IMG/VR virus record: IMGVR_UViG_3300044858_004093
Location: 1 to 41,620 of that record
Direction: 5' to 3' (one strand)
DNA length: 41,620 nt
Source: a virus
This document shows, in pieces, positions 24,562 to 35,567 of the stretch. Within the stretch, counting starts at the first letter, position 1. Each line of letters starts with the position of its first letter. A program made the translations under genes and the position numbers. Under the pieces are notes generated by a model. The model was not told the origin of the DNA. It was given only the letters and a program-made list of their open reading frames with translations, and ran no database searches.

Positions 24562-24867
24562 GACACCAGCGTAGAGGACTGGGGGTCGCCGCCGCAAAGG
24601 GGTCCAGAACACGCCGAAAACACGGCGAATAGCCGTGTTTTCCAGATTCGCGAGTCAAGAAAGTCGGCGGCCAGCGAATGAGCCATACCGCCGCGAATAC
24701 GCGGGGCTGGGGACAGGCGGTCTGCCGTCTTTGGCTGGACGGGCGTACACCCCCCCTCCCCCCGGGGGGGCATGTTCTGCGGCGCGGCGCGGCGCGGGGC
24801 GATTCTCATCTGCTAAGTGTCCGACCACGACGATTGAATTCCCGCGGCGGCGCCGCCGATACTACAC
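24562..24867. other. Divergent control region between late and early operons
   Basis: No gene. It holds an 11-bp perfect inverted repeat (24616-24642), a tract of seven C, T, six C and seven G (24750-24770), a GCGGC-rich tract (24779-24799) and a 14-base palindrome CGGCGGCGCCGCCG (24845-24858), just before the early promoter at 24868. The mix of palindromes suggests operator, packaging or origin functions, but none is proven. Confidence 0.5.
24616..24642. promoter_or_regulatory. Palindrome upstream of the terminase gene
   Basis: GAAAACACGGC and GCCGTGTTTTC pair over 11 bp around the loop GAATA. On either strand a short T-run lies in the 3' arm. Its position 55 bases upstream of terS suggests an operator for a dimeric regulator or a bidirectional terminator. 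Confidence 0.5.
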
Positions 24868-24895
24868 TTGACACTTCCGCGGACCGTGCTATCCT
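24868..24895 (+). promoter_or_regulatory. Early promoter P1
   Basis: TTGACA (24868-24873), 16 bases, TATCCT (24890-24895) preceded by TGC (extended -10). The predicted start, about 24902, coincides with the palindrome that follows. P2 (28771) has the same spacing and a near-identical -10 context. Confidence 0.7.
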
Positions 24896-24903
24896 TTTGG
24901 CGT

Positions 24904-24923
24904 GCGGCCGGGCGCCCGGCCGC
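24904..24923 (+). other. 20-base perfect palindrome at the predicted 5' end of the P1 transcript
   Basis: GCGGCCGGGCGCCCGGCCGC is fully self-complementary. Placed at about +1 of P1 it would form a 5'-terminal hairpin in the mRNA, as also seen after P2. It is followed by a GAAACGGAGACTCAAGA leader and ATG. Confidence 0.6.
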
Positions 24924-24953
24924 GGCCGATACCTTGAAACGGAGACTCAAGAT

Positions 24954-25088
24954 ATGATCATGCACAGAATCGGAAGCGTAATTTCTGGCACGTTGAACCC
25001 GCGGGAACTGGCAAACGAGTTTTTTCTCGAAGCCGACGGCCGCGGCGGGGCCGGACAATTGAACCGAAAGAAACGGAGACTCAAGACA
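24954..25088 (+). pseudogene. Remnant of a small gene, in frame with the next gene
   Basis: From ATG 24954, behind a GGAGA ribosome site, the frame reads MIMHRIGSVISGTLNPRELA then NEFFLE and continues without stop through the translated leader (LNRKKRRLKT) into the gene at 25089. The first 25 residues resemble the start of phage small proteins with a GTLRxEDLIPAF-like segment. It looks like a gene whose body has been lost by deletion between leader copies. It could also be a true 132-residue long form of the next protein. Confidence 0.35.
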
Positions 25089-25098
25089 ATGGAAACCG
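25047..25098 (+). repeat. 52-bp leader repeat, copy 1
   Basis: Identical over 52 bases to 25391-25442. It covers the untranslated leader, the GGAGA ribosome site, the ATG and the first codons (ATGGAAACCG), so two consecutive genes share one start cassette. Confidence 0.85.
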
Positions 25099-25352
25099 GA
25101 ACTATCGCGGTGGAAACCGCCGCTATCATCACTACCCGCTATATCGGCCCGACGAACTACAAGCCGGGCCGGGTAAAGGCGACGACGGGTAGCGGCAAAA
25201 CCGCTACATACTCGTGGGATCACGCGGCCGGAATTTTTGAGAATCACGCCGGCGCCGCGAAAGCGCTTGCAGGGAAACTGGGAATCGTCGGCCGTCGGAT
25301 TGTGGGCGGGGGCGTTCACGGAAGCGGGTACGCTTTCGCCTTCCTTCCATAG
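25089..25352 (+). CDS. Conserved small phage protein (IGPTN family), unknown function
   Basis: An 87-residue protein. The stretch AIITTRYIGPTNYKPGRVKA, then TYSWDHAAGIFENHAGAAKA, LAGKLG and a closing GSGYAFAF is a widely spread small protein of phages, where it usually reads AIxTKYLGPTNxRGSRIKA. Role unknown. ATG 25089 is chosen because the repeated leader places the same ribosome site before it and before the next gene at 25433; the upstream ATG at 24954 would give a longer form. It is the first intact early gene after P1. Confidence 0.75.
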   Translation: METGTIAVETAAIITTRYIGPTNYKPGRVKATTGSGKTATYSWDHAAGIFENHAGAAKALAGKLGIVGRRIVGGGVHGSGYAFAFLP

Positions 25353-25371
25353 GCTACTGTGCACGACAACG

Positions 25372-25394
25372 CCCCGCGGCGCGTTGCCGCGGGG
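25372..25394 (+). other. Intercistronic hairpin before the 25433 gene
   Basis: CCCCGCGGC (25372-25380) and GCCGCGGGG (25386-25394) pair over 9 bp around a GCGTT loop. It follows a GGCTAC box at the previous stop and precedes the shared leader. Confidence 0.6.
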
Positions 25395-25442
25395 CCGGAC
25401 AATTGAACCGAAAGAAACGGAGACTCAAGACAATGGAAACCG
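25391..25442 (+). repeat. 52-bp leader repeat, copy 2
   Basis: Exact copy of 25047-25098. Its first bases also form the 3' arm of the hairpin at 25372-25394, so the hairpin is specific to this copy. Confidence 0.85.
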
Positions 25443-25936
25443 CAACCTATACCCCCGAATTCCTGAAGCGCTGGAAACTCCCGAGAGACTACGCCGGCGC
25501 AGACTGGCCGGAACACTACGTCTCTGCCGGTCGTCACCGGGATTCCGATTGTCTGACGGAATCGAATTTCTACGCTACCCTGCGCGCCGTCGGTGGAGAA
25601 TCGGAAACCGTCCAGATTGTGCGCGAGTCGCATTGGGCGGTCGGTTGGGTTGAATGGATTGCCATTCATGAAGACGATACGGCCGCATTGCGCGCGGCCG
25701 ATAGGTGTGCCGAACGTCTCAAGAGTTACCCGATTCTGGACGACGACGACTTTTCACGGCGAGAAGATGAGCAATGCGCCGAAGTGTGGGAGAACTGCTA
25801 TCGGCCCCGCGACCGGGCCGAGTATTTCCGACGACACAGTTATTCCGGCGGATTCCGCGAACTAATGGCAGCGGTCCGGGGCGATTGGAGTGAGGCCGCG
25901 GCAATCCTTCACAGTCCGTCCGACTTGCTTTCTTGA
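25433..25936 (+). CDS. Conserved early phage protein, unknown function
   Basis: A 167-residue acidic protein. The section ESHWAVGWVEWIAIHEDDTA, ALRAADRCAERLKSYPILDD and DDFSRREDEQCAEVWENCYR followed by RAEYFRRHS is a conserved block I recognise from hypothetical proteins of many phages. The N-terminal 60 residues hold Asp/Tyr-rich segments without known fold. It has no Cys cluster or membrane segment. ATG 25433 follows a GGAGA site nine bases upstream; the shared leader also encodes LNRKKRRLKT in frame before it, but that is probably not translated. Confidence 0.72.
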   Translation: METATYTPEFLKRWKLPRDYAGADWPEHYVSAGRHRDSDCLTESNFYATLRAVGGESETVQIVRESHWAVGWVEWIAIHEDDTAALRAADRCAERLKSYPILDDDDFSRREDEQCAEVWENCYRPRDRAEYFRRHSYSGGFRELMAAVRGDWSEAAAILHSPSDLLS

Positions 25937-25945
25937 CGCCTGACC

Positions 25946-25986
25946 CCCCCGCAATCGGCGCCGCCCGCGGGCGCCGACGACGGGGG
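25946..25986 (+). other. Compound stem-loop, class A element 1
   Basis: CCCCCG (25946-25951) pairs with CGGGGG (25981-25986); inside, CGGCGCC (25956-25962) pairs with GGCGCCG (25970-25976) around a 7-base loop. It begins ten bases after the stop. Its last three bases are shared with the next hairpin, so both cannot form fully at once. Confidence 0.6.
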
Positions 25987-26013
25987 CGCCGCGCGGCGCC
26001 CGATTGTGGAAAC
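25984..26013 (+). promoter_or_regulatory. Hairpin plus GTGGAAAC box before the 26028 gene
   Basis: GGGCGCC and GGCGCCC form a perfect 7-bp stem with a GCGC loop, followed by GATT and GTGGAAAC (26006-26013). GGGAGGG then serves as the ribosome site. It is one of more than twenty boxes in this module. Confidence 0.62.
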
Positions 26014-26027
26014 GGGAGGGAATGACG

Positions 26028-26384
26028 ATGGAAACGGAAACGGTACATTGTGAAGGATGCGGCGCGGCTTGCACAACCGGATACGGGCGAACGGCCGACG
26101 GGCGGCGGTTGTGTTTTTCATGCTGCGACGCGAGGGAACGGGCGGATTTTGCAGCGGCGGAAACATATTGCGCGTACGTTTCGGGCGACGGCCGGAATAT
26201 TTCAACGTGGCCGGGGGGCAAGCTGGCAACCGTAACCCACTCCCGCCGCCACCGTGGCGGTTTCGGTGGGGAGTATTTCACGGTTGATGCCACGTCGCCC
26301 GATGGTAGCCGATGGTACGGGCGCGGCGGCGGCCCGGGTATGTTCGTGCGGCTGAAACGGCGCAAGGCTACAGACCGCGCGTAA
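26028..26384 (+). CDS. Zinc-ribbon-like conserved phage protein
   Basis: A 118-residue protein. CEGCGAACTTGYGRTADGRR followed by LCFSCC gives a CxxC-x16-CxxC set for one zinc. Then come an ARERADF helix, NISTWPGGKL and a SPDGSRWYGRG segment. This order (GYxRxxDGxxxCxxCC, then ER, then NWPG, then RWxG) is that of a widespread phage family of unknown function. ATG 26028 is chosen over 26022 because GGGAGGG lies seven bases upstream and ACG-ATG is the usual start context here. A GGCTACAGAC motif lies at the end of the coding region. Confidence 0.72.
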   Translation: METETVHCEGCGAACTTGYGRTADGRRLCFSCCDARERADFAAAETYCAYVSGDGRNISTWPGGKLATVTHSRRHRGGFGGEYFTVDATSPDGSRWYGRGGGPGMFVRLKRRKATDRA

Positions 26385-26393
26385 ACGGCCCCG

Positions 26394-26439
26394 CGGCGCC
26401 CCCCGACGGTGGAAACCGGCGGGGGCAACCGCGGCGCCG
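26394..26439 (+). other. Compound stem-loop, class A element 2
   Basis: CCCCCG (26400-26405) pairs with CGGGGG (26420-26425). The tip is CGGT/ACCG with a GGAA loop, itself part of a GGTGGAAACC box. A lower stem GGCGCC/GGCGCC (26395-26400 and 26433-26438) can extend it. Confidence 0.6.
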
Positions 26440-26441
26440 TC

Positions 26442-26465
26442 AACGGGCGGCCCGTTCGTGGAAAC
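26442..26465 (+). promoter_or_regulatory. Hairpin plus GTGGAAAC box before the 26519 gene
   Basis: AACGGGC and GCCCGTT pair perfectly around a single G, followed by C and GTGGAAAC (26458-26465). A similar block (AACG...CGTTCGTGGAAACC) recurs at 26861-26887, showing duplication of the whole unit. Confidence 0.62.
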
Positions 26466-26518
26466 CGGCACGCGCCGGCACGGGGAGAATCTAAACACTG
26501 GAAACGGAGAGTATTCAT

Positions 26519-26803
26519 ATGCGCGGCTGGACCGTGAAACACTATCGCAACCTTGCCGGAGACGGCGCGACACGGGCGGAATATACCCGCGGGGATTTTG
26601 TCGTGACGGCGGCGGATGATTGTGACCCGGAGACGGGGCGGTATACGCGGCGGTGGATTTTGCTTTACCGCGGGTTTCAGCAAGGCGGGCGGGTCGATGC
26701 CAGCGGCGCCGGGGACGCAACATACCGCACGGCCGCGGAAGCCGCGGGGGAAGCCGATCGGATGGCGGCTGCGCTTGCCAAGAATATAGCGGCGGCCCGC
26801 TAA
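26519..26803 (+). CDS. Small early protein, unknown function
   Basis: A 94-residue protein (MRGWTVKHYRNLAGDGATRA, DFVVTAADDCDPETGRYTRR, WILLYRGFQQGGRVDASGAG, then a helical C-terminus EAAGEADRMAAALAKNIAAA). The N-terminal half is strand-rich and the end is one helix. No known family was recognised. A second diverged box, CTGGAAACGGAGAG, lies just before ATG and contains the GGAGAG ribosome site. The stop is followed two bases later by the large stem-loop at 26805. Confidence 0.65.
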   Translation: MRGWTVKHYRNLAGDGATRAEYTRGDFVVTAADDCDPETGRYTRRWILLYRGFQQGGRVDASGAGDATYRTAAEAAGEADRMAAALAKNIAAAR

Positions 26804-26804
26804 C

Positions 26805-26858
26805 CGCCCCGCCCGCAACCCCCGTCCGGCGAAACCGGCGGGGGCGACGGGCGGGGCG
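26805..26858 (+). other. Long stem-loop, class A element 3
   Basis: An 11-bp stem (CGCCCCGCCCG/CGGGCGGGGCG), an internal loop CAA/CGA, a 6-bp stem (CCCCCG/CGGGGG) and a tip CCGG-CGAAA-CCGG. It starts two bases after the stop codon. The element at 32385 has the same plan with different bases in the variable stems. Confidence 0.75.
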
Positions 26859-26901
26859 TCAACGTGGCGCCCCCGTTCGTGGAAACCGTGAGGGTTATAC
26901 A

Positions 26902-27273
26902 GTGCATTTCAATTGCAATTCGGAATATCGTGCCGTTGACATTTCATGCACCGGTGCCGAGTTCTTTCGGGCATGGAAACGGCGCCACGGCCGGCGCGTG
27001 AAAATGAAGCTATGCCCGCAAAGGCAGGGCGGATGGACACTGACGGCGGTTGTACCGCACCAACGGCTAGAGCACGGCCCCGCCGACGTTGAACTGTTCA
27101 TCTTGGTGGGCGACTACCGTACAGAATCATTCAACGACCAACCGACAGAGCACGCGGCGCGACGGGCCGCCCGTCGCGCCGCCGGTTACGATTCTGAAAT
27201 GGAACCGGAGACGGTTGCGGCTGCCGTGGCGCGTCTGGAAAAAGTCTGCCCGACAATGCGGGCGCCATGCTAA
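26902..27273 (+). CDS. Small early protein, unknown function
   Basis: A 123-residue protein starting at GTG 26902, chosen because GAGGG lies seven bases upstream and the frame otherwise runs back into the hairpin region. It reads MHFNCNSEYRAVDISCTGAE and FFRAWKRRHGRRVKMKLCPQ, then VELFILVGDYRTESF and a helical end PETVAAAVARLEKVCPTMRA. It has four scattered Cys but no zinc pattern. Nothing matches a known family by eye. The GTGGAAAC box at 26879 sits only 23 bases before the start, closer than usual. Confidence 0.6.
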   Translation: MHFNCNSEYRAVDISCTGAEFFRAWKRRHGRRVKMKLCPQRQGGWTLTAVVPHQRLEHGPADVELFILVGDYRTESFNDQPTEHAARRAARRAAGYDSEMEPETVAAAVARLEKVCPTMRAPC

Positions 27274-27468
27274 AACCCCGGCCGTGGAAACCGAAAGTAA
27301 CCCCGTCCTTAACAACCCCGAGGCCCGTTGCCCCGGCGCTCGCGGCTATCGGCAGGATATGGGATCGGTTGAAACGTGGGCGTAGGCTACAGACGGAGCA
27401 ACAAGGCCGGGCGGCACGTTGCCCCCGGCCGTGGAAACGAGTGGACCCCTAGAAAGAGGAAAACGACG
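27274..27468 (+). promoter_or_regulatory. Gap with two boxes and a hairpin
   Basis: No gene. It contains GTGGAAAC at 27284-27291, GGCTACAGAC at 27385-27394, a GGCCGGG...CCCGGCC inverted repeat (27405-27430) and GTGGAAAC at 27431-27438, followed by AGAGGAAAACGACG before ATG 27469. This is the complete standard order of the module. Confidence 0.6.
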
Positions 27469-27939
27469 ATGGACATTCTCAACACTCTTGGCATCACAAT
27501 CGACGCGACATTCATTCCCCGCGATACCCCGGCCGGCGAAACGCCGACGCTGCGGTGGCGGGTGTCCGTCCGGCGAAACGGGCGGGAGTTTCACGCGACG
27601 GACTATTCGGCCGGCTGCGCTCATGCCCCGGAATACAAGAAAGCGAAGGCGCTCACGGCGGCCGTGAAGGCCGAGTGCGAGACGGGCATCCTTTACGGGA
27701 ATCGTCTCGGCCGCCCCGTGCCGCCGCCGCCCGTGGCCGACGTTGTGCATAGCTTGCTCATGGATGCCAGCGGGACAGACGACCGTTTTGAGGATTGGGC
27801 GGCGAACTACGGGTATGCCCCAGACAGTCGCACGGCCGAGCGTATGTTCAACGCCTGCCGCGAGACGGCGGCGGCCCTGCGCCGGACGTTCACGGCCGAC
27901 GAATTGACGGCGGTGGAGACGGCTTTCGTAGACTACTGA
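27469..27939 (+). CDS. Conserved phage protein (ADVxxSLxxDA family), unknown function
   Basis: A 156-residue protein. The N-terminal half reads TLRWRVSVRRNGREFHATDY and SAGCAHAPEYKKAK. The C-terminal half reads VADVVHSLLMDASGTDDRFE, DWAANYGYAPDSRTAERMFN and ACRETAAALRR. This combination is familiar from many phage genomes, where the second half is written LADVLYSLxxDAxxLDxGTFEDWA. No biochemical role is known to me. It starts at ATG 27469 after AGAGGAAAACGACG. Confidence 0.75.
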   Translation: MDILNTLGITIDATFIPRDTPAGETPTLRWRVSVRRNGREFHATDYSAGCAHAPEYKKAKALTAAVKAECETGILYGNRLGRPVPPPPVADVVHSLLMDASGTDDRFEDWAANYGYAPDSRTAERMFNACRETAAALRRTFTADELTAVETAFVDY

Positions 27940-27950
27940 CCAAGACGATA

Positions 27951-27977
27951 CGGGGGCAGGCCAGTTGCCTGCCCCCG
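27951..27977 (+). other. Perfect 11-bp hairpin after the 27939 stop
   Basis: CGGGGGCAGGC and GCCTGCCCCCG pair fully around the loop CAGTT, 12 bases after the stop. There is no U-run; a variant box ATGGAAAC follows at 27981. Confidence 0.65.
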
Positions 27978-28001
27978 TGGATGGAAACGCGACGGCCACA
28001 A

Positions 28002-28028
28002 CCCCCGGCCGTGGAAACACGACGGGGG
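28002..28028 (+). other. Stem-loop with GAAA tetraloop, class A element 4
   Basis: CCCCCG (28002-28007) pairs with CGGGGG (28023-28028), and CGTG/CACG closes a GAAA loop. The GTGGAAAC box is therefore the tip of the hairpin. The flanking ACAA and CGACGG match elements 3 and 5. Confidence 0.68.
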
Positions 28029-28094
28029 CGACGGATGGGCCGGCAGCGTGCCGACCCGGAACGTGAGAACGATAGCAACAAAGGAACCTTGACG

Positions 28095-28373
28095 ATGCAA
28101 AAGACATTCTTAGCCAGAGTCGACTACGCGGCAAAGTGGATAACCAGCGGGCGCCCCACAACAAGAAGTTTCGATTCGTGTTTTGAGTGCTATGACGGGG
28201 ACGCCGTTGTGCTGGCTCTGTGCAGGCGGGCAGAGAAAAACGATCGTTTGCGGCAAGGACTGCCGCGGTACATAGCCGAAACGAGTATCCGCGACGTACC
28301 CGCTCGCTATGAAGGCAGGCGGCCGTCCGACGTCTCTCGCGAGCTGGTTGCTAAAGCCGACAGACGAGGCTAG
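28095..28373 (+). CDS. Small early protein, unknown function
   Basis: A 92-residue protein: MQKTFLARVDYAAKWITSGR, PTTRSFDSCFECYDGDAVVL, ALCRRAEKNDRLRQGLPRYI, then AETSIRDVPARYEGRRPSDV and a basic end. CFEC is a single Cys pair without partner. No family was recognised. A degenerate box, GTGAGAAC, sits 32 bases before ATG, and AAGGAACC just before it may be a weak ribosome site. The region after the stop is rich in repeats. Confidence 0.6.
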   Translation: MQKTFLARVDYAAKWITSGRPTTRSFDSCFECYDGDAVVLALCRRAEKNDRLRQGLPRYIAETSIRDVPARYEGRRPSDVSRELVAKADRRG

Positions 28374-28463
28374 CGAGGGGGGTGCCGGCAACGAGCCTGC
28401 CCCGAGCGTGGAAACCCGGAGGACTCGAGGATGCCCCCGAGCGTGGAAACCAAGGGTATCCAA

Positions 28464-28581
28464 GGTCGGCCACCTGGGCGACCGCTGCCGCCGTCCAGCC
28501 GCAGGCCACGACCTCATCGAGGTGGTCGGCCACCTGGGCGACCGCTGCCGCCGTCCAGCCGCAGGCCACGACCTCATCGAG
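28464..28581. repeat. Tandem duplication, two 58-bp copies, period 60
   Basis: Bases 28464-28521 are repeated exactly at 28524-28581 with a GT spacer. On the minus strand it reads as a 20-residue repeat around DEVVACGWTAAAVAQVADH, with no start or ribosome site. It probably arose by recent slippage or unequal recombination. Confidence 0.85.
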
Positions 28582-28609
28582 CGCCGGCCTGCCGGCTCGT
28601 CCCCCGACC

Positions 28610-28739
28610 GTGGCAACCCGCCCCCCGGATCGTAGAAACCCGAACCCCGACCATAGAAACCCCGACCGTGGAAACCCCGACCGTGGCAACCCGAATTCTC
28701 ACGATCCCAAGTGTCCACCGAACCCCGGATCGCAGAAAC
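28610..28739 (+). repeat. Array of GTGGAAAC box variants
   Basis: Boxes start at 28610 (GTGGCAAC), 28632 (GTAGAAAC), 28653 (ATAGAAAC), 28668 (GTGGAAAC), 28683 (GTGGCAAC) and 28732 (GCAGAAAC), each preceded by CCCCGAYC or CCCGGATC. Spacing is 22, 21, 15, 15 and 49 bases. Confidence 0.75.
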
Positions 28740-28770
28740 CCTCGCGAAAACCGATGGAAATATTTTAGGC

Positions 28771-28798
28771 TTGACCCGCCCCGTGACGATGCTATCTT
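28771..28798 (+). promoter_or_regulatory. Early promoter P2
   Basis: TTGACC (28771-28776), 16 bases, TATCTT (28793-28798) with TGC before it. An A/T-rich stretch (GGAAATATTTTAGG) lies upstream like an UP element. The predicted start is about 28805, at the foot of the hairpin 28806-28824 (GGCCGGGA/TCCCGGCC, loop CGA). Confidence 0.7.
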
Positions 28799-28805
28799 CA
28801 TGCGT

Positions 28806-28832
28806 GGCCGGGACGATCCCGGCCGTGGAAAC
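28806..28832 (+). promoter_or_regulatory. 5'-end hairpin plus GTGGAAAC box after P2
   Basis: A perfect 8-bp stem with a three-base loop, directly followed by GTGGAAAC (28825-28832) and then ACCCCGATAGAGGAAACGCG before ATG 28860. It is the cleanest example of the modular leader. Confidence 0.7.
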
Positions 28833-28859
28833 CGTGACCCCGATAGAGGAAACGCGACG

Positions 28860-29207
28860 ATGAAAATGATCCACTTCCCTGAACCGATGGGGCTGCGGCC
28901 GCGGCCGGCGAGCGATTACGATCTGCTCTGCCTGCGGTTCTACCGGGCGGGCGTGGCCCGCAATGCGGCCGTGGCAATGGTGCTGGCCCGTGAGCTGGCG
29001 CAGCGTTTCGGCGACGACGTCGCCGACGATGCCTACGGTCACGGGCAGATGCTCAATTCATGCGAGGTGCGTGATGCCCGGGTGCGGTGCAGCATCGAGT
29101 ACGCGACCGCCGGCCTGGATGCCGCCTCCGAGATCGACGGATTCGACAGCATGACCGCAGCCGAGCTGGCCGACGAGGTAACCTACCTCGCTGACCATCA
29201 AGGCTAG
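28860..29207 (+). CDS. Small early protein, unknown function
   Basis: A 115-residue acidic protein: MKMIHFPEPMGLRPRPASDY, DLLCLRFYRAGVARNAAVAM and VLARELAQRFGDDVADDAYG, then CSIEYATAGLDAASEI and AAELADEVTYLADHQG. It is mostly helical, with no Cys pattern or membrane span. It is the first gene behind P2. GAGGAAACGCGACG precedes the ATG, giving a strong ribosome site. It could be a small regulator, but no DNA-binding motif is evident. Confidence 0.65.
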   Translation: MKMIHFPEPMGLRPRPASDYDLLCLRFYRAGVARNAAVAMVLARELAQRFGDDVADDAYGHGQMLNSCEVRDARVRCSIEYATAGLDAASEIDGFDSMTAAELADEVTYLADHQG

Positions 29208-29225
29208 GCTCCAGACCGACACACT

Positions 29226-29250
29226 CGCGGCCGGCGTGTTGCCAGCCGCG
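29226..29250 (+). other. Intercistronic hairpin before the clamp gene
   Basis: CGCGGC-C-GGC and GCC-A-GCCGCG pair with one mismatch around GTGTT. It lies ten bases after the GGCTCCAGAC box (29207-29216). Here the GTGGAAAC box is missing and only CCCCGAACGAGGAAACG precedes ATG 29285. Confidence 0.55.
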
Positions 29251-29284
29251 GCGGATCGATGACCCCGAACGAGGAAACGCGACG

Positions 29285-30382
29285 ATGAACACGACCGAAA
29301 CCCTCCCGACGATCGCAGCTTTGAAGACCGCCCGCGGCCGGAAGACCGGCGCGGTGATCCAGCGCACCGCCACCCGGATGACCACCACCACCACCGATGG
29401 CGACGTCTGGGTGACGATCGCCAGCCCCGACGACGGCGGCGCCGAGGGCTATGAGGTCTTCCAGCCGGGGAACGTGGCCGACGCCCCGACGATGAGCGAC
29501 CGCCGGACGTTCGCGGCGGCGCTCAACTGGCGACAGGTCGAGCAGATCGTCGGCGCCGTCGTGCCGGCGACCGACACCGAGACGAGCCGCTATGCTCTCG
29601 GCGGGACGCTCATCGAATGCCGCGAGGGATCGATGCTCGCGGTCGTGGCGACCGATGGTCGCCGCCTCCACGCGGCGCACCTCCAGCCGTCCAGCATCGC
29701 GGGCGGGACGCCCGAGCATTGCGTCGTGCCGGCGGATGCCTGGAGGCGGCTGGCGGCCGTCACGCGGGCCGCGGTGAAGGCTGTGCGCGGCCTGGCCGGC
29801 AAGGCGCTCGCCGCCGCCCTCCTGCGGGGCGCGGTGACCGTCGAGACGGACGGGACGGTCGTCCGGCTCGTCTGGGGGCATGGCGACCTGTCGGTGATGA
29901 TCTCCACCCGGCTCATCCAAGGCCGGTTTCCGCGGTGGCGGGACGTCGTCGAGCCGGCGACCGCCGACGTCGGCGGGATCGTCGTGGACGTCGATACGAT
30001 GACGGCCGAGGTGGCCGAGTTCTCCCGCCGGCACCGGGCCGAGGTGGCGACCGCGAAGGCCGCCTGGACCGCCGCGGCGGCCGTGGCGAAGCAGCAGCGA
30101 AAGTATCACGCCCCGTTCAAGCATGATCGCGGGTTGTGGGTTGGCCCCGAGGGGATGGAGGGCCGCGGGGCGACGTTCGTGAATCAGGTGCGGTCGGCCC
30201 CGGCCCGCGTCTGCCTGGACCATGCCTTCCTGGCCGACGCGCTGGCGGCGGTTGAGCTGTTCAGCCCGTCCGGCACCGCGGTGGTGCAGGCCGCCGATGC
30301 CCTGTCGGCCGTGGCGATCGGGAAGGGCATCGAGGCCGGTGAGCGTGTGGTCGCCGTGATGATGCCTCTGGCGATCGACTGA
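29285..30382 (+). CDS. DnaN-like sliding clamp
   Basis: A 365-residue protein, about the length of bacterial beta clamps (366 in E. coli). The middle domain has SRYALGGTLIECREGSMLAV and VATDGRRLHAA (residues 101-131), the hallmark of DnaN domain 2, then STRLIQGRFPRWRDVV (207-222), equivalent to the grip GRFPdY motif. The protein ends VVAVMMPLAID, like the VMPMRL terminus of DnaN. The first 80 residues are diverged. A dimeric ring should tether a polymerase to DNA, yet no polymerase or clamp loader lies in this window, so it may serve a host enzyme or act in late transcription or repair. Confidence 0.78.
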   Translation: MNTTETLPTIAALKTARGRKTGAVIQRTATRMTTTTTDGDVWVTIASPDDGGAEGYEVFQPGNVADAPTMSDRRTFAAALNWRQVEQIVGAVVPATDTETSRYALGGTLIECREGSMLAVVATDGRRLHAAHLQPSSIAGGTPEHCVVPADAWRRLAAVTRAAVKAVRGLAGKALAAALLRGAVTVETDGTVVRLVWGHGDLSVMISTRLIQGRFPRWRDVVEPATADVGGIVVDVDTMTAEVAEFSRRHRAEVATAKAAWTAAAAVAKQQRKYHAPFKHDRGLWVGPEGMEGRGATFVNQVRSAPARVCLDHAFLADALAAVELFSPSGTAVVQAADALSAVAIGKGIEAGERVVAVMMPLAID

Positions 30383-30401
30383 GGCTACCAGACGAGACTA
30401 C

Positions 30402-30441
30402 GGGGGCCGGCGCGTGACCGGCCCCCCTGGAACGTGGAAAC
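30402..30441 (+). promoter_or_regulatory. Hairpin plus GTGGAAAC box before the 30470 gene
   Basis: GGGGGCCGG (30402-30410) and CCGGCCCCC (30418-30426) pair over 9 bp; CTGGAAC and then GTGGAAAC (30434-30441) follow. A GGCTACCAGAC box lies at 30383-30393. ATG is 36 bases from the start of the box. Confidence 0.65.
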
Positions 30442-30469
30442 GAGTGACCACCGAGCGAGGAAACGAGAG

Positions 30470-30670
30470 ATGAGCACCTACCGCATCGTCCGCTGCTACA
30501 CGAACGACGGCCACCGGCCGCGCACCATCAAGCGCGGCTTGACCCTGGAGCAGGCGCAGGCCCACTGCCGCAGCCCCGAGACGTCGAGCCGGACGGCGAC
30601 CAGCGCCGCCGCTCGCCGGCGCACCAAGGCGCGCGGTCCCTGGTTCGATGCCTACGACGAGGACCGTTGA
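30470..30670 (+). CDS. Conserved small phage protein, unknown function
   Basis: A 66-residue protein: MSTYRIVRCYTNDGHRPRTI, KRGLTLEQAQAHCRSPETSS, then a basic stretch and a closing GPWFDAYDED. This pattern (TYRIVRF, RxIxxGLTLEEAQxHCxxPxTSS, WFDGYEE) belongs to a very common small phage protein of unknown role. ATG 30470 is chosen behind GAGGAAACGAGAG. Confidence 0.78.
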   Translation: MSTYRIVRCYTNDGHRPRTIKRGLTLEQAQAHCRSPETSSRTATSAAARRRTKARGPWFDAYDEDR

Positions 30671-30759
30671 CCCGGCCGCCTGCGGCCGGCGGCGAGGGGG
30701 ATGCCGGCGATCGACGCCTGCCCCGAATGTGGAAACCCGAGAGACGAGGAACCCGGATC

Positions 30760-31002
30760 ATGGCAACGAAGCAGAAGACCCGCACCTACCGTATCCGCCG
30801 CGAGTGGACGGTCGTCATGGAGTCGTGGATCGAGGTCGAGGCCGAGAACGTCGAAGCCGCGTGTGCGGCGGCCATAGAAGACGACGACTACGACGATCAA
30901 GAGATCGCGCCCGACAGCGACGGGCCGACCTACATCGGAGCCGTCGAGCGTGACGGCGATGCCCTGGAAGTGCCGTACCACTGGACGGAGGAGTCGCTCT
31001 GA
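30760..31002 (+). CDS. Small acidic protein, DpnD/PcfM-like
   Basis: An 80-residue acidic protein: TRTYRIRREWTVVMESWIEV, EAENVEAACAAAIEDDDYDD and PTYIGAVERDGDALEVPYHW. The strand WTVVMESWIEVEA followed by a helix NVEAACAAAIED resembles the DpnD/PcfM-like family of small phage and plasmid proteins. Its role is unknown. It follows a hairpin (CCGGCCG/CGGCCGG near 30663) and a GTGGAAAC box (30729). The stop overlaps the next ATG (TGATG). Confidence 0.65.
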   Translation: MATKQKTRTYRIRREWTVVMESWIEVEAENVEAACAAAIEDDDYDDQEIAPDSDGPTYIGAVERDGDALEVPYHWTEESL

Positions 31003-31334
31003 TGACCCCGACCATCGAAACCGGCGGCTACCGGCTCTCCCCTCGCGTGACGCTCCAACCGGGCGACACGTTCCGGGTGGCCGGCGGCCCCTACTACAGG
31101 CTCGCGGACGGGCGGCGGGTGCCGATGGCGGCCCGCGGCGTGTTCCGGCTCTCTGAGGTCGTCAGGCAGCGGAGCCGCGTCTATCTGCTCGCCTACGGGC
31201 CTGGCGGATGGGCGCTGCTCCACGTTGAGGGCCGGCGGCGGTCGGCGGTCGCGGGCCTGGTCGCCCGGCCGTATCGGGTGCGGCGGGCCGGGCGGAAATG
31301 TTGCAGGGTTGACCCTAGCAGGGTCGATGCTTAG
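31002..31334 (+). CDS. Small basic protein, unknown function
   Basis: A 110-residue protein starting at the TGATG overlap, so translation is coupled. PGDTFRVAGGPYYRLADGRR and VPMAARGVFRLSEVVRQRSR suggest a small SH3-like or OB-like barrel. The end is very basic (RPYRVRRAGRKCCRVDPSR). The C-terminal codons overlap promoter P3, so part of the tail may have been shaped by regulatory sequence. No family was recognised. Confidence 0.6.
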   Translation: MTPTIETGGYRLSPRVTLQPGDTFRVAGGPYYRLADGRRVPMAARGVFRLSEVVRQRSRVYLLAYGPGGWALLHVEGRRRSAVAGLVARPYRVRRAGRKCCRVDPSRVDA

Positions 31335-31337
31335 GAT
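31309..31337 (+). promoter_or_regulatory. Early promoter P3
   Basis: TTGACC (31309-31314), 17 bases, TAGGAT (31332-31337), overlapping the end of the 31002 gene. The predicted start is about 31344. A perfect hairpin (31359-31374) and a GTGGAAAC box follow, as at P2. The -10 fit is weaker than for P1 and P2. Confidence 0.55.
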
Positions 31338-31358
31338 ACTGACGCAGACATTACGGCA

Positions 31359-31386
31359 GGGGCCGCGTGGCCCCGAACGTGGAAAC
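31359..31386 (+). promoter_or_regulatory. Hairpin plus GTGGAAAC box after P3
   Basis: GGGGCC and GGCCCC form a 6-bp stem with loop GCGT, then GAAC and GTGGAAAC (31379-31386), ACCCCGAGCGGAGGAACGAG and ATG 31415, 36 bases from the box start. Confidence 0.65.
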
Positions 31387-31414
31387 GGGAACCCCGAGCG
31401 GAGGAACGAGAATC

Positions 31415-31690
31415 ATGGGAGCGATGAAGCGATTTTACGAAGAGTGCGCTGAGGCAGGCCGATGCCCGCTGACGCGGGAGACGTTCGATTGGCTGGACGA
31501 CGTCGAGTGCCAGCACCAGCTCGACTGGATCGGCTACTGCGAGCACGACCTGTTCGACGCCTCTGGCCGGATGATCGGCTACGAGGACTGCATCGAGATG
31601 GCGTCGGCCCGCCGGCTCGTTGCCGAGGGGCTGGCGAACGACGAGATCAAGTTTTTCGTGGAGTGCTTCGGGGACTACTGCCCGGCCTGA
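31415..31690 (+). CDS. Small acidic Cys-rich protein, unknown function
   Basis: A 91-residue protein: MGAMKRFYEECAEAGRCPLT, RETFDWLDDVECQHQLDWIG and YCEHDLFDASGRMIGYEDCI, then a helix ASARRLVAEGLANDEIK and FFVECFGDYCPA. Seven cysteines are spread over the length without a classical zinc spacing. The fold is probably helical. ATG 31415 is used because GGAGG lies ten bases before it; ATG 31424 is an alternative. It is first behind P3. Confidence 0.62.
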   Translation: MGAMKRFYEECAEAGRCPLTRETFDWLDDVECQHQLDWIGYCEHDLFDASGRMIGYEDCIEMASARRLVAEGLANDEIKFFVECFGDYCPA

Positions 31691-31696
31691 CCGGCC

Positions 31697-31762
31697 AGCC
31701 GCCCCGGCTCGTTGCCTGGGCGGCTCGATTGATGGATGATTCACCAGACCCCCGGACGGGGG
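31697..31762 (+). other. Two hairpins before the 31785 gene
   Basis: AGCCGCCC (31697-31704) pairs with GGGCGGCT (31718-31725). CCCCCG and CGGGGG (31749-31762) form a short second stem with loop GA, followed by AACGAGAGGAGAGGG as ribosome site. Here the fixed arms of class A are used without a GTGGAAAC box. Confidence 0.55.
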
Positions 31763-31784
31763 AACGAGAGGAGAGGGAATAATC

Positions 31785-32381
31785 ATGGCAGACATCATTG
31801 CGACCGTGGCCTGGAATTGCGGGGAGCACGACTGCCCCGTCGGATGGCATAAGTCCAGTTACTGGCTGGACGATGACGGCACCTACACCGTGGACAACTA
31901 CAGCGACGGCGACCATGAAGAGGTCGGTGCGGATGATCTCCCGACCGCCGACGAGATCGACAGGTCGTGGCTTGACTACTCGCGGGACGTTGCCTCGACC
32001 GGCTGCGACCCGCTGGGCGAGTTCTTCGTACCCCGCACGACGAAACGGAAGGAGCGGTACACCGCGGCCTTCCGGCCGTCGATCCTGGGCGGCCTCCTTG
32101 TCGCCGTGAGGCGAGGCGGCAAGGTCGTGCCGCTGCGTGATCTCCCGCAGCGAGTGATCGACTACCTTGACTGCGAGCGGATGCCTGGTGCGGCTGGCAA
32201 TCTCCGGTTCCGCGGCGGGTGGCAGGAGTTGACCGGCCTGGACTGCGCGAAGCTCTACCGCGGCACGGCCCGCGTCACGTTCACGCTCGACCATGAGGAA
32301 CCGAGGCCCGAGGCGGCCGTCGAGGCCGATCTGCGGCGGGCGGCTCGCCGGCACCTGCGAGAGAACAAGGCGACGGCCTGA
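31785..32381 (+). CDS. Early protein of 198 residues, unknown function
   Basis: MADIIATVAWNCGEHDCPVG and WHKSSYWLDDDGTYTVDNYS form a strand-rich, His/Cys-containing N-terminal part that might bind metal. The middle (DEIDRSWLDYSRDVASTGCD, PLGEFFVPRTTKRKERYTAA) and the C-terminal part (LPQRVIDYLDCERMPG, TARVTFTLDHE, then LRRAARRHLRENKATA) look like mixed strands and helices. No recognised family. The stop is followed four bases later by a class A stem-loop. Confidence 0.65.
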   Translation: MADIIATVAWNCGEHDCPVGWHKSSYWLDDDGTYTVDNYSDGDHEEVGADDLPTADEIDRSWLDYSRDVASTGCDPLGEFFVPRTTKRKERYTAAFRPSILGGLLVAVRRGGKVVPLRDLPQRVIDYLDCERMPGAAGNLRFRGGWQELTGLDCAKLYRGTARVTFTLDHEEPRPEAAVEADLRRAARRHLRENKATA

Positions 32382-32384
32382 CGA

Positions 32385-32436
32385 CCCGCCCGCAACCCCC
32401 GGCCGGCGAAACGCTGGCACGGGGGCGACGGGCGGG
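32385..32436 (+). other. Long stem-loop, class A element 5
   Basis: CCCGCCCG/CGGGCGGG (8 bp), internal loop CAA/CGA, CCCCCG/CGGGGG (6 bp) and a tip GCCGGC-GAAAC-GCTGGC with one G.T wobble. It matches the plan of element 3 (26805) with compensating changes in the tip. Its right arm overlaps the next hairpin. Confidence 0.75.
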
Positions 32437-32461
32437 CCGACGCGGCCCGGAGCGTGGAAAC
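32433..32461 (+). promoter_or_regulatory. Hairpin plus GTGGAAAC box before the 32491 gene
   Basis: CGGGCCG (32433-32439) and CGGCCCG (32443-32449) pair over 7 bp; GAGC and GTGGAAAC (32454-32461) follow. The 5' arm shares four bases with the 3' arm of element 5, so the two folds exclude each other. Confidence 0.62.
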
Positions 32462-32490
32462 CCATAACCCTAGAGACGAGGAGAGCGAAG

Positions 32491-32919
32491 ATGACGACCA
32501 AGACACTGACCCACCAGCAAATCGCCGCCATGCGAGACGAGGCCGCGGCGGCTCGCGACTACGCGATGGTCGATACCTGCACCCGAGCGATCGGCGGCGA
32601 CGAGGCCGCGGTGGAGGTCGTGGCAACGGCGATTGCCGATGCGGCCGCGATGGATGACGAGGCGCCAGCGGCGGCGACCGAATACGGGCTGGCACTGTAC
32701 GAGCATGACGAGACCTACGCGGCCGTGATCGACCGCGACGGCGTGGCGCTCGACCGTCACGATGCGCCGGAGTGCGACGCGCACGGATGGGGCTACTCGG
32801 TCGGCGACACGATCGAGATCGACGGCAGGCAGTGCAGGCTGACCCAGGTGTCTGGCGACATCCAGACCGGCGACACTCGCGGACACTACGTCGAGGCGAT
32901 TGCCCGCGTGATCGGCTGA
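32491..32919 (+). CDS. Conserved early phage protein, unknown function
   Basis: A 142-residue acidic protein. The N-terminus LTHQQIAAMRDEAAAARDYA, MVDTCTRAIGGDEAAVEV and VATAIADAAAMDDE is a helical block often seen in phage hypothetical proteins (typically IRALRxEAAxAGDxxMVxICxRAL). The C-terminal half is strand-rich (GYSVGDTIEIDGRQCRLTQV, TRGHYVEAIARVIG). Role unknown. GACGAGGAGAGCGAAG precedes the ATG. Confidence 0.7.
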   Translation: MTTKTLTHQQIAAMRDEAAAARDYAMVDTCTRAIGGDEAAVEVVATAIADAAAMDDEAPAAATEYGLALYEHDETYAAVIDRDGVALDRHDAPECDAHGWGYSVGDTIEIDGRQCRLTQVSGDIQTGDTRGHYVEAIARVIG

Positions 32920-32930
32920 CCAATCACCCC

Positions 32931-32955
32931 GCCCGCCGGCACGGGGCCGGCGGGC
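32931..32955 (+). other. Perfect 10-bp hairpin before the 32984 gene
   Basis: GCCCGCCGGC and GCCGGCGGGC pair around ACGGG. It is followed by GCAAACCACAGAGACGAGGAG, in which the usual GTGGAAACC is reduced to GCGCAAACC. Confidence 0.65.
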
Positions 32956-32983
32956 GCAAACCACAGAGACGAGGAGACGAGCG

Positions 32984-33535
32984 ATGCGACCCTACGACGA
33001 GATGACCGACGAGCGGCGGTGCGAAGCCGGAGCCGGCCTGCACTACAAGAGCCGCGAGTGGGGCGAGATTTTCAATACTGGCGGATGGGATGGTGCCTGG
33101 CCGGAGATCGACCGGCACGGCAAGCTGACCGGCCGTATCGTTGGCGACGAGGACGGCTACTTGAACGTGAACGACGAGGCGATGATCTCCGAAGCCGAGG
33201 CTCGCGCCGGTGGCTGGAGTCGTCCTGACGATGGATACGCCGAGCCGCCAGCTGGTGTGATGCCGATGGTCGAGGTGCTCGTCTGCCACCGTTCCGGTAT
33301 CGCTGGCGCGCGATGGTGCCGGCCGGTCGGCTGGACGCCGCGGAACAGGATCGCAGACGCCGACTGGGTGGAGTCCGATGGCTCATGGTGGGGCGAGGCT
33401 GGGGAGGAGGCCGGCATCGTGATATTCGGACACGACGAGGAGGGCGACACGGTGACCGTTGGCCTTGACGACCTCCGCGTGGCGTCGTGCGGCGAGTGCC
33501 GCGTTATCGCAGATGTTCAAGTCGATTTTGCCTGA
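32984..33535 (+). CDS. Early protein of 183 residues, unknown function
   Basis: MRPYDEMTDERRCEAGAGLH opens a Trp-rich N-terminal half (REWGEIFNTGGWDGAWPEID, then GWSRPDD). The second half carries VEVLVCHRSGIAGARWCRPV, DWVESDGSWWGEAGEEAGIV and GDTVTVGLDDLRVASCGECR. The Trp/Gly-rich strands suggest a small beta domain. Cys are not in zinc spacing. No family was recognised. GAGGAGACGAGCG precedes ATG 32984. Confidence 0.65.
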   Translation: MRPYDEMTDERRCEAGAGLHYKSREWGEIFNTGGWDGAWPEIDRHGKLTGRIVGDEDGYLNVNDEAMISEAEARAGGWSRPDDGYAEPPAGVMPMVEVLVCHRSGIAGARWCRPVGWTPRNRIADADWVESDGSWWGEAGEEAGIVIFGHDEEGDTVTVGLDDLRVASCGECRVIADVQVDFA

Positions 33536-33563
33536 CCCCGGCCCGCAGCAACCAGTGTTCGAT

Positions 33564-33598
33564 TTACCCCTGCCGCCCCGTGCGGCGAAACCAGAGGA
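33564..33598 (+). repeat. Leader cassette repeat, copy 1
   Basis: TTACCCC plus a 28-base block TGCCGCCCCG...CCAGAGGA is repeated at 33804-33839 with one extra C. The block contains a 5-bp hairpin (GCCGC/GCGGC, loop CCCGT), a GAAACC box and the AGAGGA ribosome site. Confidence 0.8.
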
Positions 33599-33606
33599 GA
33601 GAGACG

Positions 33607-33801
33607 ATGAAGCGTGAATATGTGGCGGTGATGGACGGCGAAGGCCGCGCACCCGACGAGATCGTGAAATCCTGCGTGGCGTCGAGCCGGCAGGTTGCCG
33701 AGCGCAAGCTCAACGGCGATCTCTACCTCGTGATGACCCGCCGGCAGGCCGAGGCCCGCGGCATCCAAGACCTTCGCGAGCAGACGCGGTTCTGCCGGTG
33801 A
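33607..33801 (+). CDS. Small basic protein, unknown function
   Basis: A 64-residue protein: MKREYVAVMDGEGRAPDEIV, KSCVASSRQVAERKLNGDLY and LVMTRRQAEARGIQDLREQT. It has one N-terminal strand and two helices. The helix pair SSRQVAERKLN and TRRQAEARG is compatible with nucleic acid binding but not diagnostic. It is preceded by the first copy of a repeated leader cassette. Confidence 0.62.
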   Translation: MKREYVAVMDGEGRAPDEIVKSCVASSRQVAERKLNGDLYLVMTRRQAEARGIQDLREQTRFCR

Positions 33802-33803
33802 AA

Positions 33804-33839
33804 TTACCCCCTGCCGCCCCGTGCGGCGAAACCAGAGGA
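33804..33839 (+). repeat. Leader cassette repeat, copy 2
   Basis: Second copy of the 33564 cassette, starting right after the previous stop. Hairpin arms are 33813-33817 and 33823-33827. Two neighbouring genes thus share one start signal, as at 25047/25391. Confidence 0.8.
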
Positions 33840-33849
33840 CCGAAATACG

Positions 33850-34122
33850 ATGGACAAGCAGAAACTGGAAGACGCCGTGAAAACCGTCGTCGCGCTGGAG
33901 GGGCGACCGCTGCCGCTGCTGTCGGCAGACGAGCGAGCCATCTGCGACCTGCTATCAGAGCAGCGAGAGTGGCACGCCTCGGCGGTCGGCCTGACGCGGT
34001 GGATACGGAAAGACAAGGACGCGAGGAAAGCGGACAGGGCGATCGCGGAGGCCGCAGAGCGTCTGTGGGCCGGGATGCTCATCGGCAAGGATACGGACGG
34101 CAACTACTACTACACCGGCTAA
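33850..34122 (+). CDS. Small helical protein, unknown function
   Basis: A 90-residue protein: MDKQKLEDAVKTVVALEGRP, LPLLSADERAICDLLSEQRE, WHASAVGLTRWIRKDKDARK and ADRAIAEAAERLWAGMLIGK, ending in DGNYYYTG. It is almost all helix with a mixed charge pattern and no Cys. It could be a small DNA-binding or inhibitor protein, but nothing specific can be read. It is followed closely by the next gene (15-base gap with AAAGGCGAGGCG as ribosome site). Confidence 0.62.
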   Translation: MDKQKLEDAVKTVVALEGRPLPLLSADERAICDLLSEQREWHASAVGLTRWIRKDKDARKADRAIAEAAERLWAGMLIGKDTDGNYYYTG

Positions 34123-34137
34123 CAGAAAGGCGAGGCG

Positions 34138-34323
34138 ATGAACAACAGAGTGTCACCCTACGAAGCCGGCTGGCTCACGTTCCTGGTCGAGCACGGCCTG
34201 GCGACGGCGGCGGCGGCCCGCGAGGCACAGAATCGCGTGGCACAGGAGGCCGTCCGCGAACTGGAGGAGCGGAGGAAGCGGCGGCGGGCCGAACGCCGCC
34301 GCAAAAACCGCGAGGAGGACTAG
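34138..34323 (+). CDS. Small Arg-rich helical protein, unknown function
   Basis: A 61-residue protein: MNNRVSPYEAGWLTFLVEHG, LATAAAAREAQNRVAQEAVR, then an extended basic helix with RKRRRAERRRKNREED. The strongly charged C-terminal helix suggests nucleic acid or acidic-protein binding. Start ATG 34138 overlaps nothing. The stop is followed by duplicated TAGGCTACYGGCCGA sequences. Confidence 0.6.
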   Translation: MNNRVSPYEAGWLTFLVEHGLATAAAAREAQNRVAQEAVRELEERRKRRRAERRRKNREED

Positions 34324-34365
34324 GCTACTGGCCGATAGTCTGTGTAGGCTACCGGCCGAGATAGT
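34321..34365 (+). repeat. Direct repeat TAGGCTACYGGCCGA...ATAGT
   Basis: TAGGCTACTGGCCGATAGT (34321-34339) is repeated with two extra bases and one change at 34345-34365, period 24. It is a duplicated form of the GGCTAC box that follows stop codons elsewhere in the module. Confidence 0.7.
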
Positions 34366-34394
34366 GGACTGTGGCAACCCAGAGGAGCAGAGCG

Positions 34395-34700
34395 ATGAAG
34401 AGGATCGAGGGATTCAATACAGGTGACCAAGCGTGGTCGGCATGGGTGTCGATCTCGCAGCACAGGCCGATCGCCGCCGCGGCGGCATCGGTGTGCCTGG
34501 AGCTGGTCGAGGTCGTCATGCCCGAGGGGGGCATTGTCCGGCCCCACGGCCAGTCGCCGCGAGTCCTCTACTACCATGAGCGTTTGTTCCCGACCCAAGC
34601 GGAGGCACGCCAGTGGGTGGCCGCGCAGGTGGCAGCCGGTGCGGCAAGCCTCGCCAAGCAGGCCGCCGACCTGGCCGATCCGGTCGTGGTGACCGTATGA
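34395..34700 (+). CDS. Small early protein, unknown function
   Basis: A 101-residue protein: MKRIEGFNTGDQAWSAWVSI, SQHRPIAAAAASVCLELVEV and VMPEGGIVRPHGQSPRVLYY, then HERLFPTQAEARQWVAAQVA and a helical end. The second half (FPTQAEARQWVAAQV) looks like a strand followed by a long helix. No known domain. GAGGAGCAGAGCG precedes ATG 34395 and a GTGGCAAC box lies at 34371. The TGA overlaps the next ATG. Confidence 0.62.
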   Translation: MKRIEGFNTGDQAWSAWVSISQHRPIAAAAASVCLELVEVVMPEGGIVRPHGQSPRVLYYHERLFPTQAEARQWVAAQVAAGAASLAKQAADLADPVVVTV

Positions 34701-34966
34701 TCGGCATCGTCCGCGATACCTGGCGGGCTGTGCTCGTCCTGGTCGTCGCCGTGCTCCTCCGCGGCATCGTCGCGGAGGAGCCGACGCCGGCCGTGCCGCC
34801 CCCGTGGCAACCGGCACCCGTTCAGTGGCAACCCCCGCCCGTGGCAACCGGGGCGTGGCAACCAGCGGCGGCACCGCCCCCGGCCGTGGAAACCAAAGGT
34901 CCGATTCGACGGGTCGCCCGCGAACTCGTAGACTTGTCCGAGGCTGTCATAGGAGTACTGCGATGA
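34697..34966 (+). CDS. Small membrane or secreted protein with Pro/Trp-rich linker encoded by box repeats
   Basis: An 89-residue protein. Residues 1-25 form a signal or anchor (MIGIVRDTWRAVLVLVVAVL then LRGIVAEE). Residues 30-67 are PPWQPAPVQWQPPPVATGAW followed by QPAAAPPPAVETKG. This section is the direct translation of at least five GTGGCAACC/GTGGAAACC boxes with their C-rich spacers, read in different frames (WQP, VAT, VET). The end is a helix ARELVDLSEAVIGVLR. Function unknown. It is coupled to both neighbours by overlaps. Confidence 0.65.
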   Translation: MIGIVRDTWRAVLVLVVAVLLRGIVAEEPTPAVPPPWQPAPVQWQPPPVATGAWQPAAAPPPAVETKGPIRRVARELVDLSEAVIGVLR

Positions 34967-35262
34967 ACCTGGAAGACCTCGTCACACCGGCCGACGCCGC
35001 GGCGGCGATCGGCGCACCGAACAAGCGTGCCGTCTACCGCGCAATCGCTCGAGCCGAGGCGGCCGGCGAGGACGTCACATACACCGCCTTCGGCCGCCGG
35101 CTGATCCGGCGCGACCGGCTCGACGTCGTCAAGAAGTACTACTTCCCCTACTACTCCGACGCTCATCAGGCCAGCGTGCGGAAGTGGGGGGCCGCCGGGG
35201 GCGCAGCCTCCGGCGTCACAAAACGCCTGCGGAAGGCGGCCAAGGAGAAGGGGGCCGGCTAA
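34963..35262 (+). CDS. Winged-helix/HTH DNA-binding protein, conserved in phages
   Basis: A 99-residue protein starting at ATG 34963 (ATGA overlap). LVTPADAAAAIGAPNKRAVY and RAIARAEAAGEDVTYTAFGR followed by RLIRRDRLDVVKKYYFPYYS is a phage-type helix-turn-helix with wing, of a family often written LTPAEAAREIGAxNRRAVYR. The C-terminus is a basic Gly/Ala-rich tail (KWGAAGGAASGVTKRLRKAA). It is probably a transcription regulator or site-specific DNA binder. It ends the early module and overlaps the HNH gene's stop by four bases. Confidence 0.72.
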   Translation: MNLEDLVTPADAAAAIGAPNKRAVYRAIARAEAAGEDVTYTAFGRRLIRRDRLDVVKKYYFPYYSDAHQASVRKWGAAGGAASGVTKRLRKAAKEKGAG

Positions 35263-35567
35263 CGGCCCTCGCTGGCCGTCTTCAAGCCGTGGCAGCGTCG
35301 GCAGAGCAGTTGCAGCCCCGACAGCGGCGTGGCCTCTGCGGCCTCGTGGAGGGGCTTGGCGGTGATGTGATCGACCTGGCTGTCCCCAGGGCGGTGGCAG
35401 ACCTTCCCGCAGGCGGCGCAGCACCCCCCGGCACGGGCGATCACGGCCTTCCGAACCCGCTGCCACGCCGGCGAACCGTACCCCCGTGCGTTGGAACTCG
35501 GGCGGGCCTCCTCCGTCCGGCGAAACGAGCCGAAGCGCGGCCTATACGTTGGGATTCTGCGCGGCAC
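35259..35567 (-). CDS. HNH endonuclease
   Basis: About 102 residues from GTG 35567 (ATG 35591 is the alternative). The core reads WQRVRKAVIARAGGCCAACG, VDHITAKPLHEAAEATPL and LQLLCRRCHGLKTASEG. It gives the CxxC...VDHI...CxxCH pattern of HNH nucleases with structural zinc. Such proteins either aid terminase (packaging) or act as free-standing homing endonucleases. It lies 11 kb from terL, at the tail-to-tail junction with the early operon, so the packaging role is not implied by context. Confidence 0.82.
   Translation of the reverse strand: MPRRIPTYRPRFGSFRRTEEARPSSNARGYGSPAWQRVRKAVIARAGGCCAACGKVCHRPGDSQVDHITAKPLHEAAEATPLSGLQLLCRRCHGLKTASEGR

Follow-up and report, generated by a model that had tools for sequence, protein, structure and literature searches.

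Many early genes in a group of uncultivated phages are separated by a conserved non-coding cassette whose first hairpin, H1, is one structured element absent from Rfam. The window (the whole stretch of DNA analyzed, 41,620 nucleotides of IMG/VR virus record IMGVR_UViG_3300044858_004093) carries packaging and head genes on the minus strand (TerL at 22584-24095, portal, protease, and capsid) and, on the plus strand at ~24.95-35.26 kb, an early module formed by a run of small genes, most without assigned function. All five compound stem-loops pointed out in an earlier note on this DNA lie in this module. At a junction, the elements follow in the order stop codon, H1, a second hairpin (H2), a short motif (M), RBS, and start codon, over ~110 nt of non-coding DNA. 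Its probable role is to keep the messages of neighboring genes apart and to prepare each of them; quite possibly, it is a mobile intercistronic RNA that would end or protect one mRNA and set up the next. The earlier note did not mention H2, the motif common to the downstream side, or the fact that the cassette is independent of the genes around it.

The five stem-loops are real: all fold as described there, and a covariance model recovers each of them on the plus strand with E values from 1.6e-12 to 6.9e-5. Copy 1 (25941-25991; E = 4.3e-8, and by folding) starts 4 nt past the stop codon of gene 25433-25936. It has a CCCCCG/CGGGGG lower stem, a CAA/CGA internal loop, and a TCGGCGCC/GGCGCCGA upper stem, and is followed by H2 and then by GTGGAAAC at 26006. 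Copy 2 (26386-26439; E = 6.9e-5), 1 nt past the stop of 26022-26384, has a CGC/CAA internal loop and a CGGT-GGAA-ACCG tip. Copy 3 (26805-26858; E = 1.6e-12), 1 nt past the stop of 26519-26803, combines an 11-bp lower stem, CAA/CGA, and a CCCCCG upper stem, with motif M (CCCCGTTCGTGGAAACC) behind it at 26871-26887. Copy 4 (27990-28042; E = 2.1e-7) lies ~50 nt past the stop of 27469-27939 with another hairpin in front; its lower stem is degenerate, its internal loop CAA/CGA, and its tip CGTG-GAAA-CACG. Copy 5 (32382-32439; E = 2.3e-12), with CAA/CGA and a GCCGGC-GAAAC-GCTGGC tip, abuts the stop of 31785-32381. It opens a 109-nt cassette (32382-32490, plus strand) composed of H1, H2, GTGGAAACC, and the RBS GAGGAG, and ending just before the ATG at 32491. 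The H2 of this cassette (CGGGCCGACGCGGCCCG, 32433-32449) has 7 nt in common with the 3' arm of H1, and its motif M (CCCGGAGCGTGGAAACC, 32446-32462) is found 14 nt after H1.

The covariance model, seeded with 19 aligned H1 copies, gave 47 copies at E < 0.0005 in related IMG/VR phages, 41 of them distinct and all 47 on the coding (sense) strand. Copies 2 and 4 of the window were outside the seed and were nevertheless recovered. In the 19-copy alignment, 94% of cells are paired and 9 of 17 pairs have changed on both sides; none of 500 shuffles reaches any of the covariation measures, a statistic that ignores the relatedness of the copies. Among the 41 distinct copies, 92.9% of cells are paired and 13 of the 17 stem pairs show two-sided changes, against at most 7 in slid controls. 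Most seeds were chosen with fixed inner arms, and the alignment was fitted to the model. Yet the lower stem, except for its closing pair, lay outside this selection, and a structure-only scan retrieved copies with other upper stems (CCGGCGCC, CCCCACGGC, CCGCACGGC, and CGGGCG), so that the conclusion of covariation is independent of seed selection. The compensating differences seen in the window therefore do reflect selection on structure, as had been proposed, with covariation above every one of the 500 shuffles and every slid control, and relatives do not show random substitutions in these stems. Counted to compare the two strands as the folding one, the wobble asymmetry, as G-U versus A-C, is 11 versus 31, and 11 versus 8 without the basal column.

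The CCCCCG/CGGGGG arms, previously regarded as fixed, are not: in relatives they are replaced with compensation and covary around a conserved 3x3 internal loop. The 5' side of this loop is CAA in 29 of the 41 copies and the 3' side CGA in 33. CAA/CGA is also the commonest 3x3 loop in 21 M-bearing phage regions, with 13 of 46 sense matches (the next has 2); in a first-order Markov control, such 3x3-loop hairpins numbered 7 in total. The earlier note had recognized CAA/CGA in the elements at 26805 and 32385; it is equally present in those at 25946 and 28002, and the element at 26394 carries the CGC/CAA variant. The GNRA-like tips described there are found by MFE folding in 17 of the 41 distinct copies; an A-rich triloop is seen in ~13, and a GCCCGCG-type loop in at least 7.

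An Rfam scan of 24800-35300 gave no match at the gathering threshold; relaxing the cutoff to E = 5 added only a gabT match below threshold at 27657-27725, outside the H1 elements. A strict pattern scan of viral contigs detected many more H1 copies in other phages, together with a few chance matches inside genes; a longer strict pattern had no match in a bacterial and archaeal genome collection of 257 billion bases. Cassette or early-region DNA had no match among INPHARED phages and PLSDB plasmids, and the early regions of relatives lacking M gave no significant match to the H1 model. These copies constitute a family of structured RNAs in uncultivated phages that had not been recorded before.

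The position of H1 is tightly constrained. Its start lies within 4 nt of a stop codon in 41 of the 43 testable copies (those with an identifiable upstream gene) and at 6 nt in one; the remaining copy is the one at 27990, ~50 nt past the stop. The closeness to stop codons that had been remarked on thus holds, but the distances of 2-18 bases given for four elements do not, the true starts being at 0-4 nt. In most copies, GTGGAAAC or a near variant is found 12-22 nt past H1, followed by an RBS and a start codon. On either side of this constant block the genes differ: by blastp, H1 copies are flanked by 24 upstream and 31 downstream gene clusters. The cassette at 32382-32490 matches 49 loci at 69-95% identity, some of these loci being overlapping pieces of one contig, whereas 5 loci, from two distinct phages, match the last 300 nt of its upstream gene and no locus matches the first 300 nt of its downstream gene. 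The junction is therefore better conserved than either gene, the pattern of a mobile regulatory cassette. What stands out is a non-coding junction that outlasts its genes, whose structure covaries and whose spacing to the stop and start codons is constant.

The second hairpin sits between H1 and M and overlaps H1 in all 44 copies examined, and in 30 of 30 distinct copies in a second count. Its 5' strand is the end of the H1 3' strand, 4-9 nt of the H1 3' arm being used, so that the base of H1 and H2 are mutually exclusive. A partition-function model of the free RNA predicts that the H1 base dominates. When the 12 nt past the stop were masked, mimicking a terminating ribosome, copies forming H2 rose from 8 to 34 of 37; as this shift follows at least partly from the overlap itself, the argument for a switch lies in the conserved overlap rather than in the calculation.

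The placement (a 3' hairpin for one gene, followed by the leader of the next), the size, and the internal loop, together with the lack of U-runs, lead us to favor an intercistronic processing or insulating element. Intercistronic RNase III hairpins of ~60 nt occur in T7 early transcripts. One such substrate, T7 R1.1, is cut once into 47 and 13 nt (PMC4858673). H1, which consists of two helices flanking an internal loop, matches R1.1 in size at 51-60 nt and likewise forms an intercistronic double strand of ~20 bp interrupted by an internal loop. It differs in that the loop is symmetric and conserved in sequence (3x3, CAA/CGA), and in the linked H2 and M. We infer that R1.1 is the nearest mechanistic model, with the role of RNase III in the cassette an analogy. 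In a polycistronic early transcript, the cassette would then act as an insulating processing site, H1 being the double-stranded signal, most likely for an RNase III-type cut at the internal loop or the base. Such a cut would leave the upstream mRNA with a protected 3' hairpin and provide the downstream gene with a leader made of H2, M, and the RBS. Since the stop codon marks the start of H1, and H1 and H2 have a strand in common, a terminating ribosome should open the H1 base and let H2 form; translation of the upstream gene would thereby be coupled to the leader of the downstream one. Being a repeated homologous block, the cassette would also allow genes to be swapped at the junctions; the data support gene shuffling as an evolutionary consequence.

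A stronger version, in which many early-gene junctions carry the cassette as a portable RNA switch and the terminating ribosome decides which hairpin stands before the next gene, is rather doubtful. If it is true, unrelated new genes could be plugged into a uniform, termination-sensing control with no need of their own. The conserved, covarying junction makes the idea of a plug-in expression cassette directly testable, and it bears on the open question of how small genes of unrelated origin are acquired by phages and become expressed immediately.

Motif M (CCCCGNNCGTGGAAAC) is strongly oriented, with 326 sense and no antisense copies conforming to CCCCGNNN in the 21 regions. In the window, CCCCGNNCGTGGAAACC with up to three mismatches occurs 38 times against 3.06 expected, 37 times on the plus strand. 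M is found after H2, in arrays with a preferred spacing of 21 and 23 nt, near RBSs as GAGGAAAC, and inside one coding region; six copies form an array at 28600-28740 on the plus strand, upstream of the promoter at 28771. About two thirds of the H1 tips (28 of 41) are themselves M-like. These features would also fit a protein binding site, an RNA operator or a stoperator-like DNA site, in which a regulator recognizes M and the M-like tip. The candidate regulator is a small HTH-like protein encoded at 34963-35262, which tblastn aligns in 17 phages of the M-bearing group, the window phage included. A DNA site, though, needs no covarying stems of changing sequence. The AlphaFold model of the protein (pLDDT 78) has no confident match in the PDB (best E 0.41), a viral-contig search with it gave no confirmed relatives, and its tie to M is one of co-occurrence. 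We consider binding by such a regulator a rather unlikely account of the cassette as a whole. M may nonetheless have a separate role at the DNA level, since it is also present in arrays and in a coding region without H1.

We rejected three other interpretations of M. It is not a small hairpin of its own, as pairing is not favored between its flanking bases (C/C 79, C/G 72). In general, the 45-nt stretch ahead of M is not unusually structured, and hairpins do not as a rule precede M; together with the flanking bases, this indicates that M and the hairpins are separate modules. A CRISPR-repeat mimic and an ECF -35 box were suggested by resemblance only, and the contexts of M are too varied and followed by RBSs. 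At 34796-34894, within gene 34697-34966 encoding a small membrane-type protein, tandem sense copies of M run through a Pro-rich linker in more than one reading frame, and these linker copies recur in relatives.

The alternative pairing in 44 of 44 copies and the location of H1 at the stop codon would also suit a transcription attenuator or factor-dependent terminator, in which H1 or H2 pauses or stops the polymerase according to translation of the upstream gene. It would recall the PeSLs of T4-like phages, in which an early promoter is coupled to a terminator stem-loop. Yet no T-run follows any of the five window copies. H1 thus lacks the U-run that accompanies the GC hairpin of an intrinsic terminator, and is, as had been noted, no ordinary terminator. 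Terminator-like sites are no commoner than chance (7 against 7.3), and if many early junctions carried terminators but no internal promoters, the distal genes would be starved. Sigma70-like sites on the plus strand are limited to 24868, 24934, 28771, and 31309, none inside an H1 cassette. We regard attenuation as unlikely.

The third possibility is a purely recombinational cassette, whose homologous blocks would promote shuffling with no role in expression. It would account for the many different gene pairs around H1 and for the identity kept across 49 loci between unrelated genes. But compensatory changes preserve structure over sequence identity, which a recombination substrate would not need, and the placement is fixed relative to stop, M, and RBS. 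This makes recombination improbable as the sole function. Chance palindromes, although favored by the high GC of the genome, are already refuted by the covariation, the locked position, the excess of M, and the count of compound 3x3-loop hairpins, four in 25901-32500 where a dinucleotide shuffle gives 0.18 (100 shuffles, maximum 4 in one).

The cassette resembles several known systems of other phages. The PeSL cassettes of T4-like phages combine a stem-loop and regulatory sequence at early-gene junctions and are tied to gene shuffling (as cited in PMC4503421). To that extent H1, a stem-loop at early-gene junctions in shuffling regions, resembles them; it differs by the absence of a U-run and of a recognizable promoter, and by stems covarying around a fixed internal loop with an overlapping second hairpin. 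The SAS/ESAS of cluster K mycobacteriophages are short asymmetric sequences in one orientation before the starts of many gene families, in wide gaps; they are absent from the host, and about half have an upstream inverted repeat (PMC3203893). M shares the single orientation and the placement before starts, but mostly lies ~15-70 nt before the start, whereas SAS overlaps the RBS; the inverted repeats of H1 vary with compensation and are tied to the preceding stop. The 13-bp SAS GGGATAGGAGCCC has no match with up to two mismatches. Like the stoperators of cluster A mycobacteriophages, M is a short asymmetric intergenic site with one orientation relative to transcription; the stoperator consensus GGTGGMTGTCAAG gave 2 matches at two mismatches against 1.5 expected, and M is distinguished by its link to covarying RNA hairpins and RBSs and by having only a candidate regulator. 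The cassette would work like a mix of such systems and resembles PeSL, SAS/ESAS, and T7 RNase III sites, but by sequence it belongs to none of them.

Several other features of the early region were observed. The sigma70-like promoters at 24868-24895 and 28771-28798 are each directly followed by a GC hairpin, then by a GAAAC motif and an RBS, with M also present behind the hairpin at 28771; this layout matches the cassette leader. The second of these promoters lies in a 486-nt non-coding stretch (28374-28859). Besides the M array and a shared ATTCTCACGATCCCAAGTGTCCACC block, this stretch has ~62 nt duplicated in tandem almost exactly (28460-28580). The contigs of several relatives start or end near its equivalent, which may mark a genome end or an origin. 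Relatives with a related TerL (loci L171-L177) have early regions without M or H1; in at least one of them (L171), the early module is of another kind and contains a repeated GTAGGCTTTC motif of its own as well as long tandem repeats. Host searches with TerL, portal, clamp, and early proteins gave distant mixed hosts or no match, and genome contigs searched with TerL and the strict H1 pattern revealed no host or prophage. The clamp, encoded at 29285-30382, resembles DNA polymerase sliding clamps but is divergent (PHROG 947, E = 7e-9), and a tblastn search of isolate phages gave no match to it. A GGCTAC motif, possibly a further junction element, recurs soon after stops or in intergenic gaps at 25353, 27388, 30384, 34324, and 34345. 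Finally, a DUF3800-VIII RNA (Rfam RF03075; 58.3 bits, E = 1.6e-8) is encoded on the minus strand at 41284-41349.
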